Program-made: the position numbers and the translations under genes
Notes under the pieces: generated by a model
What the model was told of the DNA's origin: nothing
The model's input: the letters and a program-made list of their open reading frames with translations, nothing else
Databases searched by the model: none
Shown: piece after piece, positions 3,077 to 31,461 of the stretch
Layout of the letters: every line of letters starts with the position of its first letter
How positions within the stretch are numbered: position 1 is the stretch's first letter
DNA from: Acetobacteraceae bacterium
Lineage (GTDB): Bacteria > Pseudomonadota > Alphaproteobacteria > Acetobacterales > Acetobacteraceae
Length of the DNA: 32,236 nt
Reading direction: 5' to 3'
Assembly: GCA_025452005.1 (NCBI GenBank)
Contig: JANWJK010000350.1
Location: 1-32,236 of the forward strand

Positions 3077-4888
3077 TCAGAAGCTCCAGAACACTGGGAC
3101 GAGGAACTCCGCGACCACGAAGAACAGCAGCAGCAGCGGCAGCCCGAGTTTCCAGTAGTCTCCAAAGCGATAGCCGCCCGGGCCCATCACCATCAGGTTG
3201 ACCGGGGTCGCGACCGGGGTGAGGAAGGCGGCTGCGGAGGCCACCGTGACGCTCATCAGGACGGGTCGTGGGGACACCCCGATCTCGTGCGCGGCTGCCA
3301 CCGCGATGGGGATGATGATGAGCGCTGTCGCCGTGTTGCTGATGAGCTGACCGAGGACTGCCGTCAGCACGAACAGTCCGGCAAGCAGTGCATAAGGGCC
3401 GGCGTCACCGACCAGATGCACCAAGGACTCCGCCAAGAGGTTCGCTGCACCACTCTTGGACATGGCTGTGGATAGCGGGATCATGGCGCCGACCAGGATC
3501 ACCGTTGTCCAGTTGATCGAGCGGTAGGCCTGTTCGACTGTGACAACACGAAACAGTACCATGGCGCAGGCGGCGACCAGGCCGGCGATCGCCGAAGGCA
3601 CTGCGCCGGTCGCGAGCAGGACCACCATGCCGAGCAGCACGGTGATCGCCGACTTCGCCCCCGTGCCCATGGGAACCGCCTGCCGGCGAACGACTTCCGG
3701 AGAGTCGACGACCAGCACATCGGGATCGTCGAGATGTTTGTCGAGCGCCTGCCAGGTCCCTTGAAGCAGCAGCGTGTCGCCGGCGGCCAATATTGTTTCG
3801 TCCGGACCCTGATCTTCGTTTCTGCGCTGCACCGCGAGGATGACCAGGTCGCCGCTCGGTGTGACCATCCCGGGGAACACAGACTGCCCGATCAGCCCGG
3901 AACGCGGTGGGATCACGACCTCAGCCAAGCCGGAGCTGCGGTTGAACAGCGTCTCGGCGACGTCGGTGGGGGCGTCTTCTGCTCGAAATGCGAGCAGGTT
4001 GTCGGACGCCAGACCGCCGACGGTTTCTGCGTCGCCCCGCACGATAAGGATATCGCCCTCGGCGAGTGCGGGACGCCGGAGCCGACCGCTCCCGTCGCCG
4101 GCCTGGATGGCGACCAAAGTGAGTCCCGCATAGTCGGTCAGGTCGATGGCAGAGGGTGACGCCCCGACATATGGCGAGCTCGTCCGTACGCCGAGTTGGA
4201 ACAGCCCGTCCTCCAGGCGGTACTGTTCGACAAGGGTTCGGGCGTGTTTGCTCAGATCGAGTGGAAGCGTTCGCCCACTACGCTCCGGCAGCAACCTCTG
4301 CCCGAACAACACCACGATCACGATCGTTCCGACCACCAGCGGAATGCCGGCAATGGCGAATGAGAAGAAACCGAACGGTGGCAGTCCGGCATCCGTAGCG
4401 GCTTCCGACACGAGCACGTTCACCGGCGTGCCGGTGAGCGCCAGAAGCGATCCGGAATGGGCGGCAAATACCAGCGGCATAAGCAGTTGCGAGGGAGAGC
4501 GGCCGAGGCGGATTGCCATGACGACAACCACCGGAAGCAGTGCGGCGACCGCTCCGTTGACGCTGATCAGCGCGGTGAGCAAACCCACCAGGGTCATCAT
4601 GAGGACGATCAGCCGGACCCGGCTTTGCCCCGCCTGGGCGATTAGGCCCTGTCCCGCCCATGCGGTTACGCCGGTGGCCTCGAGGCCGGCGCTGACGACG
4701 AACAACGACGCGATGAATATGACGGCGGGGTCGCCTAGGCCGCCCAGCGACTCGGTGAGATTGAGCACACCAGTGAAATACAACGCGAGCGCCGTGCCGA
4801 GGGCTACCAGGACGACCGGAACGCAATTCCAGACGAACAGAACCACGATCGCTGCGACGATCGCGAAGGTAATTGCGATATGGCTCAT
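3077..4888 (-). CDS. SLC13-family transporter with two TrkA-C domains
   Basis: A 603-aa inner-membrane carrier of the divalent-anion:Na+ symporter type. Membrane segments fill residues 1-200 and 410-600. The two halves carry the SNT-like re-entrant motifs: SVNGAVAALLP with TGTPVN in the first, ISNTATAL with TPVNLMV in the second. Between them, residues about 215-295 and 310-385 form two TrkA-C (RCK-C) regulatory domains facing the cytoplasm. The frame stays open 115 codons further upstream, but that stretch lies inside the AbgT gene and reads as non-protein. ATG 4888 begins the first membrane helix (MSHIAITFAIVAAIVV). It is the last gene of a minus-strand operon, 62 nt after AbgT. Likely substrates are di- or tricarboxylates or sulfate; the sequence does not decide. 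Confidence 0.88.
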   Translation of the reverse strand: MSHIAITFAIVAAIVVLFVWNCVPVVLVALGTALALYFTGVLNLTESLGGLGDPAVIFIASLFVVSAGLEATGVTAWAGQGLIAQAGQSRVRLIVLMMTLVGLLTALISVNGAVAALLPVVVVMAIRLGRSPSQLLMPLVFAAHSGSLLALTGTPVNVLVSEAATDAGLPPFGFFSFAIAGIPLVVGTIVIVVLFGQRLLPERSGRTLPLDLSKHARTLVEQYRLEDGLFQLGVRTSSPYVGASPSAIDLTDYAGLTLVAIQAGDGSGRLRRPALAEGDILIVRGDAETVGGLASDNLLAFRAEDAPTDVAETLFNRSSGLAEVVIPPRSGLIGQSVFPGMVTPSGDLVILAVQRRNEDQGPDETILAAGDTLLLQGTWQALDKHLDDPDVLVVDSPEVVRRQAVPMGTGAKSAITVLLGMVVLLATGAVPSAIAGLVAACAMVLFRVVTVEQAYRSINWTTVILVGAMIPLSTAMSKSGAANLLAESLVHLVGDAGPYALLAGLFVLTAVLGQLISNTATALIIIPIAVAAAHEIGVSPRPVLMSVTVASAAAFLTPVATPVNLMVMGPGGYRFGDYWKLGLPLLLLFFVVAEFLVPVFWSF

Positions 4889-4950
4889 GCTACCCGCCGT
4901 ATACGTGTCTTCGGTAACGAAACATGGTAATCGGTCATCGCGACCGATGG

Positions 4951-6486
4951 TTAAACGCCGAGGGGGATTCCAAGCAGGTACCAAAGGATCAGGACTACGG
5001 TCCACACGACATACAACACTACCGTGTAGGGCAGCATCATTGCGACGACCGTACCGACGCCTGCTTCCTTCTGGTACTTCTGTGCGAATATAACGATCAT
5101 GCCGAAGTAGGCCATCAATGGGGTGATCACATTCCCCGGCGAGTCCCCGACCCGATAGGCGGCCAGCACGACGTCGGGTGCGACATTCAGCTTCAGGAAC
5201 AGCGGTACAAAGATCGGTGCGAGGATCGCCCACTTCGCGATCGCTGCGGGAATGATCAGATTGACCACGGCGGTGACGACGATGAATACGATCAATAACG
5301 GAAGCGAGCCAAAATTGACGCTTTCGATAATATCCGACAGCCGAACGGCCGCGATCGTGGCGAGGTTGCTGTAATTGAAGTGCGCAAGGAATTGGCTGAT
5401 CACCAGGAACAGGAAAAGCAGGCCACCGAGGCCAGCAAAGGTCTTGGTGATCGCGGCGATGGCTTCCGTCATGGTGTTGATCGTGCCGGCGCCCTTGCCG
5501 TAGGCAAATCCGGTGACGAGAAACAGCAGCATGATCAGGACGATCAGGCTGTTCATCAGCGGCGAGTTGCCGATCAGCGAACCCGTTTCAGGGTTTCGCA
5601 GCGGTGCGCCCGGAGGAAGCGCAAGCAACGCGATCACGATGAGGATGCCGATCAGCCCATAGACCGCAAATTGCAATCCCCGTGCCTCTTCGGCGGACGT
5701 ACCCGCATTCTCCTCGGTTGGACGCTCCCCATGGTACTCGCCGAGGCGGGGCTCAATGACCCGTTCGGTGATGACTGTGCAAACCACGCAGAGCACGATG
5801 CTCGACACTATGGAAAAATACAGGTTCGCGGTCAGGTAGATCGTGTACCCCGGGTTGAGCAGATGAATGGCATCATTGGTGATTTCGGTCAGCACGCCGT
5901 CGATGGGCGTGATGATCAGGTTGACGCCGAAGACCGCGGCAACACCGGCGAATGCCGCGGCCAATCCGGCGATTGGATGCCTTCCCAGGCTCAGGAAGGC
6001 AGCGGCTCCCAGGGGGATCAGGACCAGATAGCCGGCGTCGGACGCGACGCTCGACAGCACGCCCATCGCGACGATGATGAAGGTGATCGCCTTGCGCGGA
6101 GCGACGATCACGATCTTGCGGATCAGCGCGTTGATCAGGCCGGCCTCTTCCGCCAGGCCAACGCCCACCATGGCGACAAGTATTACGCCGACCGGGGTGA
6201 ACCCCAGGAAGTTTCTGATGGTGGAGGTGATGATGAAGCGGATTCCCTCCGCCGACAGGAGGCTGTTGACAACAGCAGTGGTGGTTACAGCCTTATGCGT
6301 CTCCGGGTCGATGACCTGATAGGTGACACTCGTTCCCAGTAGATGAAAGATAAACGACAGCACGATGACGATGGCCGACATCAGCAGAAAGATAACAGCG
6401 GGATGCGGCACCTTGTTGCCGACAACCTCCACGCCGTCGAGCAGCTTTTGCAGGAATGTCTTTCGGTCCAACGTGGCCTGACTCAT
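4951..6486 (-). CDS. abgT: AbgT-family transporter
   Basis: A 511-aa polytopic membrane protein matching the AbgT family (p-aminobenzoyl-glutamate uptake in E. coli; related MtrF proteins export antimetabolites). Length equals the usual 500-510 aa. Typical family stretches are visible: NKVPHPAVIFLLMSAIVIVLS near the N-terminus, SSVASDAGYLVLIPLGAAAF, and VGDSPGNVITPLMAYFGMIV near the C-terminus. The start ATG 6486 is preceded by GGGAGGGG about 8 nt away. It sits between the porin and the SLC13 carrier on the same strand. The convergent Tat amidohydrolase makes import of an amide-linked aromatic or dipeptide plausible, but the substrate is inferred only from the family. Confidence 0.9.
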   Translation of the reverse strand: MSQATLDRKTFLQKLLDGVEVVGNKVPHPAVIFLLMSAIVIVLSFIFHLLGTSVTYQVIDPETHKAVTTTAVVNSLLSAEGIRFIITSTIRNFLGFTPVGVILVAMVGVGLAEEAGLINALIRKIVIVAPRKAITFIIVAMGVLSSVASDAGYLVLIPLGAAAFLSLGRHPIAGLAAAFAGVAAVFGVNLIITPIDGVLTEITNDAIHLLNPGYTIYLTANLYFSIVSSIVLCVVCTVITERVIEPRLGEYHGERPTEENAGTSAEEARGLQFAVYGLIGILIVIALLALPPGAPLRNPETGSLIGNSPLMNSLIVLIMLLFLVTGFAYGKGAGTINTMTEAIAAITKTFAGLGGLLFLFLVISQFLAHFNYSNLATIAAVRLSDIIESVNFGSLPLLIVFIVVTAVVNLIIPAAIAKWAILAPIFVPLFLKLNVAPDVVLAAYRVGDSPGNVITPLMAYFGMIVIFAQKYQKEAGVGTVVAMMLPYTVVLYVVWTVVLILWYLLGIPLGV

Positions 6487-28261: not shown

Positions 28262-28274
28262 ACCGCGCCGCGGT
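28262..28274 (-). terminator. Small GC hairpin at the kinase stop
   Basis: ACCGC (28262-28266) pairs with GCGGT (28270-28274) around a 3-nt loop, beside the kinase stop codon, between convergent genes. The stem is short and lacks a T run, so a terminator role is weakly supported. Confidence 0.25.
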
Positions 28275-29551
28275 CAGGGTCGCTTGCGCAGGAATGCCTG
28301 CCGGTCGGCCTCGCGTTCGATATGCGAGGCCAGCCGCTGCCAGAAATCGTCGGGTGAGGTCGCAGCCTCCAGAGCGCGCTTCGCCAGGATGCGGGCGATC
28401 GGCCCCACATGGACCGCGAGTTCGCGTTCGCCCTGTTGCGCCAGCGCCTGCGGGACGGGGTGCGCCGACCGGCCGCTGGCATCGCCCGTCGGATCCTGGC
28501 GGAATCGCGAGCGCTGCGCCGGCTCATCGATCCGCCGCGCCACGATGTCGCGCAGTTCCTCGAGCGAGCCTGCATGCCGCGCCGCGGTCTGCACCAGATG
28601 GTGCGCGATCGGACCGACATGCTGCGCCAGTTCGCGTTCGATCGTGCTGAGTGCCGCCTCGGTGAAGCCGGCGTGTCCTCGCGGCAGCACAACGGTCCGA
28701 TCCGTCAGATCGTTCGGCGCGCTCCGGAGCGCCTGCCCGAGCGCTGCCGCCATATCGCCAGCCGTTGCGAAGCGATCCTCGGGCAGCTTGGCCAGGGCGC
28801 GTTCGACGGCCGCGACCAGCGCGCGCGGCAGAGAGGGATCGGTCGCGCCGAGGTCGGGCGGCGGCTGGTTCATCACCTGCAAGGCGATCTCGGTCATGTT
28901 GCGGCCGGTGAACGGCCGCATTCCGCTCAGCAATTCGTAGAGCACGACGCCGGCGCAGAACAGGTCGCTGCGCGCATCCGCCGCCTCGCCGCGACATTGC
29001 TCGGGCGACATATAGCTGGGCGTGCCGATCACCGTGCCGGCCTGCGTGAGCGCGGAGGTGTCCAGGCGCGAGATGCCGAAATCGGTCATCTTCACCTGCC
29101 GGTCGGCCATCAGCAGTATGTTCGCCGGCTTCACGTCGCGATGCACGACGCCGAGACCGTGCGCACAACCGAGCGCATCCAGCACCTGGCCGATCAGCGC
29201 GACGGCGTCCGGCGGCGGGAACCGGCCGGACCGGGCGAGTACCTGGCTGAGGTTGCTGCCCTCGACATACTCCATTGCCAGGTAGGGATTTCCCTCGTGC
29301 ACCGCGAAGTCATACACGGCGACGATGTTCGGGTGGGCACAGCGTCCGGCCGCCTGCGCCTCGTGGCGGAAGCGGGCGACATACTCGGCACGTTCGTCGC
29401 CCCCGAGCAGGTCCGCCCTGATCAGCTTGATCGCCACCTTGCGGTCGATCGCCGGATCATGCGCCAGATAGATCATGCCCATCGCGCCGCGGCCGAGCAG
29501 ACGCTCGATGCGATAGCGGCCGATCGCGACAGGCAGGGCGGCGTCGGGAAT
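28274..29551 (-). CDS. Ser/Thr protein kinase with duplicated C-terminal motif
   Basis: A 425-aa soluble Hanks-type kinase. The glycine loop LLGRGAMG (18-25), VAIKL (K42), the catalytic HRDVKPAN (D139), DFG (157) and GTPSYMSPEQ are all present, so it should be active. The first in-frame ATG (29482) would remove the glycine loop. The likely start is ATT at 29551, 7 nt after GGAG and 1 nt after the stop of the sensor gene. No ATG, GTG or TTG lies between the upstream in-frame TGA and residue 24. The tail has two similar segments, ERELAQHVGPIAHHLVQTA (about 305) and ERELAVHVGPIARILAKRA (about 376). There is no membrane helix, so it probably depends on the coupled sensor for input. Confidence 0.9.
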   Translation of the reverse strand: MPDAALPVAIGRYRIERLLGRGAMGMIYLAHDPAIDRKVAIKLIRADLLGGDERAEYVARFRHEAQAAGRCAHPNIVAVYDFAVHEGNPYLAMEYVEGSNLSQVLARSGRFPPPDAVALIGQVLDALGCAHGLGVVHRDVKPANILLMADRQVKMTDFGISRLDTSALTQAGTVIGTPSYMSPEQCRGEAADARSDLFCAGVVLYELLSGMRPFTGRNMTEIALQVMNQPPPDLGATDPSLPRALVAAVERALAKLPEDRFATAGDMAAALGQALRSAPNDLTDRTVVLPRGHAGFTEAALSTIERELAQHVGPIAHHLVQTAARHAGSLEELRDIVARRIDEPAQRSRFRQDPTGDASGRSAHPVPQALAQQGERELAVHVGPIARILAKRALEAATSPDDFWQRLASHIEREADRQAFLRKRP

Positions 29552-29552
29552 A

Positions 29553-30425
29553 TCAGCTCTCCAGCAGCTTCATGGCGTTCGCCAGGCTGCGCCGCATACG
29601 GTTGAACGATCCGGCGAGCGAGGCGATCTCGTCGCGCCCGCGTTCGGCGAATTCCGGCGCATCCATATTGCCCAGGCTCACTTCGCTGGCGATATCCGAC
29701 ATCCGCCGGATCGGCTTCACGATGACGAAATGCAGCAGCAGGTTCAGCAACACGATCGTGACGGCGAAGACGGTGACCAGCGCGAGCAGGTATATCTTGA
29801 ACGCCGCGCTGGCGCGATCCAGCGCGACCTGCATCGGTACCGAGACGATCTGCGCGGCCGCCACGTCGCCCAGCTTCCAACCGAAGCCGTTGGCGCTGCC
29901 GTACAGGTCGATCATCGAGGTGGGCGCGGCGGACGGCGTCGAATGGCAGGACAGGCAGTCCTTGTCGGTGATGCGGATCGGACGGGAGATCGACAGGATC
30001 GGCCCGGTCGGACTGTCGCGGGTGCTGGTGAAACTGGTGAGCGATGGATTGCGGGCGAACTCGGCTATGATGCCGCTTTCCCAGTCGGTGGCACGATCGG
30101 CGGGATTGGTCGGATTGAGGGCAGCTTCCTTGTAGGTGTAGTCGGGGAACTGCGCGGCCAGGGTGCGCAGGTTGGTCTGCGCCGCCCAGGACGGCACTGT
30201 ATGCGGCAGGAAGCGCACCTTGATCTGCCCGGCGAGCAACGGACCTATCTCCTTGGCGGTGTAGTCGCGAATGGCGGAGGCCTGCGCCATCATGACCTCG
30301 GCCTGCTGCACGACCTCGCGGCGGGCGTTCTCGTGCACGATCTGCCAGGACAGCACCGCGGCGAGGAGGAGGCCGACCAGGAACGCCAGCAGCAGCACCA
30401 GATTGAACTTGGCCTTCAGGCCCAT
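29553..30425 (-). CDS. Membrane heme sensor: Tll0287-like (DUF3365) domain plus HAMP
   Basis: A 290-aa inner-membrane sensor. Membrane helix 1 (about 8-28) and helix 2 (about 211-235) flank a periplasmic Tll0287-like domain. It contains a CLSCH c-type heme motif (157-161) and an IRITDKDCLSCH lead-in typical of the family. Residues about 237-288 form a HAMP linker ending within 2-3 residues of the C-terminus, with no kinase, cyclase or methyl-accepting output domain. The output is presumably the Ser/Thr kinase encoded immediately downstream, whose start is 1 nt after this stop codon. It probably senses redox state or a heme ligand such as NO. ATG 30425 follows GGGGAGA. Confidence 0.87.
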   Translation of the reverse strand: MGLKAKFNLVLLLAFLVGLLLAAVLSWQIVHENARREVVQQAEVMMAQASAIRDYTAKEIGPLLAGQIKVRFLPHTVPSWAAQTNLRTLAAQFPDYTYKEAALNPTNPADRATDWESGIIAEFARNPSLTSFTSTRDSPTGPILSISRPIRITDKDCLSCHSTPSAAPTSMIDLYGSANGFGWKLGDVAAAQIVSVPMQVALDRASAAFKIYLLALVTVFAVTIVLLNLLLHFVIVKPIRRMSDIASEVSLGNMDAPEFAERGRDEIASLAGSFNRMRRSLANAMKLLES

Positions 30426-30450
30426 GCGCGTCTCCCCTCGGCGTCGTCGG

Positions 30451-31461
30451 TCATGGACCGCCGACCAGCCTGGTCGCCTGCGCGGCGGTGAGCCGGCCCG
30501 TCATGTCGGCGCCAAGCTCGTGCTGGTAGCGGCGGATCGCGGCGCGGCTGTCCGGGCCAAAGACGCCGTCGATCCTGCCGTCGTAATAGCCCAGCCGCAC
30601 CAACGCGATCTGCACGCGCCGGCGATCGCTGTCGGTCAACTGCTCGTCCGCCGGCAGGGCGGCTGCCGGCCCCGCCACCGCCGGCGCCGGTGTCGTGGCG
30701 GATGGGGATGGGGCCGGCGGCGGAGGCGGCGGCGCACCGGCGAGATAGCCCGGCGCGACCGGTGGCCGGAACGCCGCCAATGTCACCGATCGGTTGGCGC
30801 CGACCTGCTGCTGGACGCCGTTGAGCAGCGCTGCCACCTGGACCTCCGGACCCTTCAGATTGGCCACCAGGGAAGCGGCGAGCGGGGTCGGCGCATCCGG
30901 CGGCTTCGCCTGGCTCGCGGCGATCAGGCCCAGACCGTCCGGCAGGCTGGCCTGGGCCAAGGCATCGAGATGGAGGGCGGCGGGCGCCTCGGGCATCGGC
31001 ACCACGTCGAATGCCACCACCGACGGGCCGGCGCCGCCGCGCGCAAGCACGTCGATCAGCGACTTCGCCAGGATGCCCTGGGCGAGCACATCGGCCGCAC
31101 GTGCGATCCGTGCCGTGACCGGCGCCAGGAACGGCCGGTCGTTGAATGAAGTGGCGTAGCCGCAACTATAGATGAAGGCGGCTGCGCCGGGTGCCGCCGC
31201 CACCTGGGCGGCAAATTCGCCGATCGCGGCATCGGCGCCGCCGCTGGAGACGTCCTCGCGCTCCACCACGTGGAAATCCAGCGCGCGCAGCGCCGCGGCG
31301 ACCGCATGGGCGGACAGCAGGCAGGCAGGCAGCGGTGCCAGCGCGCTGTAGGTGCCGTTGCCGATCACCAGCGCCTCGCGTGCAGGCGCGGCGTGCAGCG
31401 CGGGCGATGCCAGCAGCAACGCGGCCCCGAGCGCGACAAGGCTTGCTCTCACGCATGTCAT
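30451..31461 (-). CDS. Secreted caspase-fold pseudoenzyme with peptidoglycan-binding domain
   Basis: A 336-aa exported protein. A Sec signal (residues 1-24, ending ALHA) is followed by a caspase/peptidase C14-like domain opening REALVIGNGTYSALAPLP. The two catalytic positions are changed: the usual YxGHG is IYSCGY (97-102, His to Gly), and the usual LDAC is AFDVV (C to V154). A Pro/Ala linker (about 243-265) leads to a PG_binding_1 domain (RRRVQIALVRLGYYDGRIDGVFGPDSRAAIRRYQ, about 281-330) that should anchor it to the cell wall. It is the first gene of a three-gene operon, 25 nt before the heme/HAMP sensor. It is more likely a binding or scaffold module than a protease. Confidence 0.82.
   Translation of the reverse strand: MTCVRASLVALGAALLLASPALHAAPAREALVIGNGTYSALAPLPACLLSAHAVAAALRALDFHVVEREDVSSGGADAAIGEFAAQVAAAPGAAAFIYSCGYATSFNDRPFLAPVTARIARAADVLAQGILAKSLIDVLARGGAGPSVVAFDVVPMPEAPAALHLDALAQASLPDGLGLIAASQAKPPDAPTPLAASLVANLKGPEVQVAALLNGVQQQVGANRSVTLAAFRPPVAPGYLAGAPPPPPPAPSPSATTPAPAVAGPAAALPADEQLTDSDRRRVQIALVRLGYYDGRIDGVFGPDSRAAIRRYQHELGADMTGRLTAAQATRLVGGP

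Follow-up and report, generated by a model that had tools for sequence, protein, structure and literature searches.

A heme-HAMP receptor, a Ser/Thr kinase and a pseudocaspase in an Acetobacteraceae operon: a probable input branch of type VI secretion

What can a receptor lacking an output domain and a kinase lacking an input domain do for a bacterium when their genes lie side by side? This question is raised by a stretch of 32,236 nucleotides (nt) from an Acetobacteraceae bacterium (assembly GCA_025452005.1, contig JANWJK010000350.1, positions 1 to 32,236; hereafter, the window), in which three consecutive genes of the minus strand, separated by gaps of 25 and 1 nt, encode a secreted pseudocaspase, a membrane sensor and a Ser/Thr kinase. 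The original prediction, made from the sequence alone, had already described this gene order and spacing, with which coordinates and Pfam domains agree, under the label of envelope signalling. This label turns out to be too vague, as comparative data point to type VI secretion. In general terms, the operon is probably (roughly 0.7) a split-form, PpkA-like input branch of the threonine-phosphorylation pathway of the type VI secretion system (T6SS). Comparative evidence supports that the sensor and the kinase form one pathway, and this pathway is most likely that of T6SS activation. Observed directly are the anatomy and conservation of the operon, the near-confinement of a kinase repeat to sensor loci in the sampled family, the co-occurrence with T6SS and the synteny in relatives.

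Receptor, kinase and their conserved adjacency

The receptor (29553..30425, minus strand; 290 amino acids) has a periplasmic c-heme Cache domain between two transmembrane helices, assigned by reading the sequence, and ends in a HAMP domain (29583..29723, minus strand; Pfam 7.7e-11) which is its sole cytosolic part. Pfam recognises a Tll0287-like domain (PF11845, 6e-38), which homologues also carry, together with HAMP, and no output domain. The heme c attachment motif CLSCH can be read directly at 29943..29957 (minus strand), and CxxCH is kept in 80 of 85 distinct sensors; CcmE, which acts in heme c attachment, is encoded in the genome of the window. The kinase (28274..29551, minus strand; 425 amino acids if begun at the ATT of 29549-29551) is soluble, with no evident transmembrane segment, and its kinase domain (28772-29515, minus strand; Pfam Pkinase 4e-48) retains the VAIK, HRD and DFG motifs of the active site of Hanks-type kinases. 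Both proteins thus match what had been predicted: a c-heme sensor without output and, judging from its motifs, an active-looking cytosolic kinase without a sensor domain.

Sensor homologues were gathered from an Acetobacteraceae draw (60/397 genomes), named genomes, plasmids and a phylum sample searched with PF11845. A Ser/Thr kinase lies directly downstream, on the same strand, of 62 of the 85 distinct sensors, the caspase-sensor-kinase order is conserved, and conservation of gene order extends over Alpha-, Beta- and Gammaproteobacteria. In the phylum sample, a kinase follows the HAMP-ended sensor in G394, G397 and G287 but not in G179. The adjacency of the trio across relatives, a check proposed by the original prediction and one whose failure would have refuted it, is therefore conserved, and chance alone does not explain the arrangement; the idea that one protein lacks what the other provides is borne out. 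Distances in the gene trees are correlated as well (sensor-caspase, r 0.84; kinase-caspase, 0.62; sensor-kinase, 0.54; Mantel p 0.001 each), to which shared descent contributes. The proposal of a single pathway is, for the sensor and the kinase, supported by this adjacency, by the tree correlation and by a repeat nearly confined to sensor-bearing loci; for the pseudocaspase, it holds in many lineages as regards membership of the set, but not as a core part. A further Ser/Thr kinase, longer than that of the module, is found just downstream of it at three loci (L127, L133, L138).

The start of the kinase gene deserves a comment. Its first ATG (29482) falls within the Gly-rich loop, and so the true start must lie upstream, where no ATG, GTG or TTG occurs between the in-frame stop and the loop. 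The ATT at 29549..29551 (minus strand) has, at a good distance, a GGAG (29559-29562) within the 3' end of the sensor gene. When sensor-kinase junctions were compared in about 40 loci, six of them, including the window, had ATT or ATC alone; in the other five (L004, L031, L034, L035, L038) this codon likewise stands behind GGAG or GGAAGG. Read from these junctions, the simplest explanation would be that the kinase begins at a weak AUU/AUC codon whose use is coupled to translation of the sensor. Scans for sigma-70 promoters and terminators detected nothing. A role as a defence-system kinase was considered and rejected: PADLOC matches were generic kinase-domain ones, with none for the other two proteins.

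A STAC-like tail on the kinase

The proposed contact between receptor and kinase would be made at the C-terminal tail of the latter. Two tandem helical repeats of about 50 residues (28277..28663, minus strand), which follow the kinase domain, were delimited by alignment and structural model, and the motif G-P-x-A is invariant in both repeats of 17 aligned tails. The repeat matches no Pfam or NCBIfam family. STAC proteins have the motif LGPx(x)A in common, and one of them, Af1502 of Archaeoglobus, forms a translationally coupled pair with the receptor Af1503, in which HAMP is the sole cytosolic part (PMC4834066). The predicted fold of the repeat resembles Af1502 (PDB 5A1Q; Foldseek probability 0.80, E 2.9, statistically weak); the superposition reaches Z 4.9 over 62/69 residues, a value not above that of unrelated helical rows; and the profile of the repeat lines up with Af1502 at its GPIA motif (12.2 bits; E 1.9 when the whole PDB is searched, about 1e-5 if this single sequence is considered). 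With the repeat alone, Foldseek gave no significant match, and Af1502 stands out just when the motif and the genomic setting are considered too. The first VIA row (6frk_y, Z 5.0) was regarded as a chance match between helices, as were the IFT57 matches of the profile in the PDB.

The genomic context is the following. The repeat was found in 37/200 Acetobacteraceae genomes, all of them sensor-positive save G074, in which the contig is short, and it adjoins the sensor in every sensor-positive genome of this set except G022; in the phylum sample it was found in 2/200 genomes, both sensor-positive. Furthermore, directly after nine Acetobacteraceae sensors an MscS-like channel (assigned by Pfam on one of them) carries the same repeat in the place of the kinase. 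These channel loci are L140, L141, L142, L143, L144, L146, L148, L149 and L150, and T6SS is absent in 7/9 of their genomes. At a Bryobacterales locus (L053:6886-7530), a TIR-domain protein whose C-terminus carries a STAC-like repeat is convergent to a HAMP-only heme sensor.

Because fold, motif and context combine, each statistic being weak alone, the kinase tail is likely related to STAC. As in the Af1503-Af1502 pair (PMC4834066), an effectorless, HAMP-ended receptor is coupled to a helical LGPx(x)A unit, and the genomic coupling of this unit to HAMP-only receptors is present as for Af1502. Here, in contrast, two copies of the unit are fused to a Ser/Thr kinase or an MscS-like channel, so that the output becomes visible. 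This likely coupling part and the T6SS pathway are additions to the original prediction. The parts are of known kinds, and within the literature searched their combination has no precedent: no earlier report of DUF3365/Tll0287 together with a kinase, a caspase or T6SS was found in the open-access literature.

Co-occurrence with type VI secretion and a proposed mechanism

The link to T6SS comes from the distribution and the neighbourhood of the module. TssC (PF05943) is present in 51/60 sensor-positive and 25/60 sensor-negative Acetobacteraceae genomes; by module type, it is found in 49/49 genomes with the kinase and 2/9 with the channel. The nine sensor-positive genomes without TssC comprise seven of the channel type (G021, G024, G129, G554, G596, G630, G705), G022, where no kinase adjoins the sensor, and G548. 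The presence of TssC in kinase-type genomes is significant against sensor-negative genomes (Fisher, 1.4e-12) and against sensor-positive genomes without an adjacent kinase (3.7e-9). The locus of G548 (L139) holds a caspase gene and a truncated sensor without HAMP or kinase, that is, a decaying module.

At least 13 modules lie at 30 kb or less from tssC, and several of these are ordered tssM-tagF-caspase-sensor-kinase, with a PP2C gene nearby. We take this region to be the counterpart of the ppkA-pppA-tagF-tssM region of the Pseudomonas aeruginosa H1 cluster. Acetobacteraceae with the module in a T6SS cluster include G777, G641, G025, G037, G686, G142, G642, G043, G774 and others. Beyond these, the same situation is seen in (i) Skermanella rosea pSR-2, with the order TssM-TagF-sensor-kinase-TssH within the T6SS cluster; (ii) Caballeronia sp. 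Lep1P3, where FecR-sensor-kinase-PP2C adjoins TagF-TssM; (iii) Paraburkholderia aromaticivorans pBN1, with a sensor-kinase pair within the cluster; and (iv) G287 and G397, from the phylum sample, which was drawn regardless of T6SS. Cases (i) to (iii) came from matches to plasmids. On its contig C273, the genome of the window has T6SS genes of its own, accompanied by PP2C and TagF. Elsewhere (L047:8331-9950), an FHA-GAF-guanylate cyclase protein is convergent to the sensor-kinase pair and is a possible kinase target.

The PpkA kinases known so far sit in the membrane, carry a periplasmic domain and are driven by TagQRST, RtkS or TssW (PMC10482370, PMC12607579). The pathways TagQRST-PpkA-Fha-PppA (P. 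aeruginosa), RtkS-PpkA (Serratia) and TssW-PpkA-Fha (Acidovorax citrulli) share with the present module a Ser/Thr kinase, a periplasmic input and a periplasmic accessory protein, as well as, in relatives of the window, a kinase gene beside those of tagF, tssM, PP2C and an FHA protein. Nevertheless, here the input is a separate heme-HAMP receptor gene, the kinase has neither a transmembrane nor a periplasmic domain, and the accessory is a pseudocaspase or a FecR-like protein.

As for the input itself, the closest known protein is the sCache_heme (DUF3365/Tll0287) nitric oxide (NO) sensor of P. azotoformans, which likewise has a periplasmic c-heme Cache domain, two transmembrane helices and a HAMP end; it is a dimer that releases NO at an off-rate of 6e-4 per second, and its downstream partner is not named (PMC12889525). 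Unlike the window module, it comes with no Ser/Thr kinase, operon or T6SS partner named in that paper. The sensor of the window has no cysteines other than the two of CxxCH, as in the P. azotoformans protein, whereas the redox type has an axial Cys; by analogy, its putative ligand would be NO or the redox state. A chain from NO or redox to T6SS is proposed because membrane and sensing functions are split off in a gene of their own with the architecture of this NO-binding protein.

In the mechanism that we infer, the periplasmic c-heme Cache domain would sense NO or redox state, and the receptor dimer would relay the change via its two transmembrane helices to HAMP. Without an effector of its own, HAMP would act on the separate soluble kinase by contacting the tandem STAC-like repeats. 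The kinase, as the equivalent of PpkA, may then phosphorylate a target of the Fha/TagH or TssL type, leading to assembly of the apparatus, while PP2C (PppA) and TagF would counteract it. Finally, the wall-bound pseudocaspase might serve as a periplasmic co-sensor or receptor anchor, in the role of TagR or RtkS, and not as a protease.

The pseudocaspase and the alternative readings

The first gene (30451..31461, minus strand) encodes a secreted protein of 336 amino acids with a signal peptide, a Peptidase_C14 part (31111-31377, minus strand; Pfam 7e-7) and a C-terminal peptidoglycan-binding domain (PG_binding_1, 30469-30633, minus strand; 1e-12), in line with the caspase-like, wall-binding protein first predicted. 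According to the AlphaFold model (pLDDT 87), whose best PDB match by Foldseek is the MALT1 paracaspase (E 1e-11), followed by caspases, the protein does have a caspase fold, even though it has lost both residues of the catalytic dyad (GH to GY, DAC to DVV). Among 36 module-linked homologues, none has a DAC/DSC nucleophile motif and just 3 have His at the catalytic His position. At this dead active site, Cys47 (LPAC, after strand 1; codon 31321..31323, minus strand) and Cys100 (YSCGY, two residues before the lost His position; codon 31162..31164, minus strand) are kept together in 34/36 homologues and are jointly absent in the remaining 2, which suggests a disulfide between them. Bacterial metacaspases and orthocaspases share the caspase fold, and secreted forms and links to the cell wall are known among them (PMC3501461); the window protein differs in lacking the catalytic Cys, in a family that has mostly lost the His, and in belonging to a receptor-kinase module.

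A pseudocaspase with the peptidoglycan-binding domain lies upstream of the sensor in 27/59 Acetobacteraceae loci, as well as in Reyranellaceae, Thiodictyon and Lamprocystis. In Burkholderiales, FecR-like secreted proteins take its place; in one genome (L130, about 3688-5229 in sensor-strand coordinates) the place is taken by an FGE-sulfatase-like secreted protein (Pfam 2e-29), presumably of the same family as TagR of P. aeruginosa; and at the remaining loci no recognised protein is found there. Since it can be replaced by FecR-like or FGE-like proteins, or by nothing, the pseudocaspase is an accessory and not a core part. One locus (L106) has a second caspase-sensor copy after the kinase.

Several points weigh against a T6SS input branch. 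The trio is not adjacent to T6SS genes in the window, those of the genome being on a separate contig of a 368-contig draft; this genome has two further Ser/Thr kinases; the kinase is devoid of the transmembrane and periplasmic domains that known PpkA proteins carry; the STAC match is statistically weak when taken alone; and the co-occurrence counts carry no full phylogenetic correction, though within-genus contrasts agree in the six genera holding both states (g4, g17, g31, g53, g54, g99). The first of these points, repeated in many other genomes, would suit a general HAMP-to-STAC-kinase unit that signals redox or NO stress to targets other than T6SS and is associated with T6SS through shared horizontal transfer or lifestyle, and so would the pairing of the same kind of receptor with MscS-like channels, mostly in genomes without T6SS. 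Such a unit is, however, unlikely, given that TssC is present in all 49 kinase-type genomes and is often missing in channel-type or sensor-less relatives, that the module occupies the position of ppkA in several clusters, and that G548, having lost the kinase, is also without TssC.

Another possibility is that sensing, be it of peptidoglycan or of damage, falls mainly to the pseudocaspase with a redox-active Cys pair, and that the heme protein only relays the signal. The peptidoglycan-binding domain, the conserved Cys pair and the sensor-caspase correlation, the strongest of the three, speak in its favour; but many modules have no caspase gene, whereas CxxCH is nearly constant, which makes it rather improbable. 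That the receptor and the kinase are one split protein, fused by ribosomal frameshifting at the 1-nt junction, would account for the six loci without an ATG, GTG or TTG start upstream of the Gly-rich loop; it was rejected as very improbable, because the relative frame of the two genes varies from locus to locus (0, 1 or 2) and the kinase start is a normal one in most relatives. Finally, three functionally unrelated neighbours brought together by chance would fit the absence or replacement of the pseudocaspase at many loci, but hardly a gene order kept in three proteobacterial classes, distant genomes included, or the correlated trees and the co-occurrence of the repeat and of T6SS; this can practically be set aside. 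A split input branch of T6SS remains the probable reading.

More broadly, and as a tentative idea to which we give somewhat less than even odds, HAMP-to-STAC may be a general coupling code, in which STAC repeats allow HAMP receptors without an effector to dock one output or another (Ser/Thr kinase, mechanosensitive channel, perhaps TIR); in bacteria with T6SS, a periplasmic heme NO/redox sensor would control the injection machine, assisted by a pseudocaspase that is bound to the wall and has a redox-active Cys pair. If the proposed pathway is right, HAMP-only receptors, which have had no clear effector since Af1503, would gain an output, STAC would have a suggested function as the receiving part, the newly described NO-binding heme Cache domains would be linked to a response, and a direct chemical signal (NO or redox) would be an input to type VI secretion. 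In any case, for the bacterium that carries it, the operon probably helps to decide when the type VI weapon is activated.

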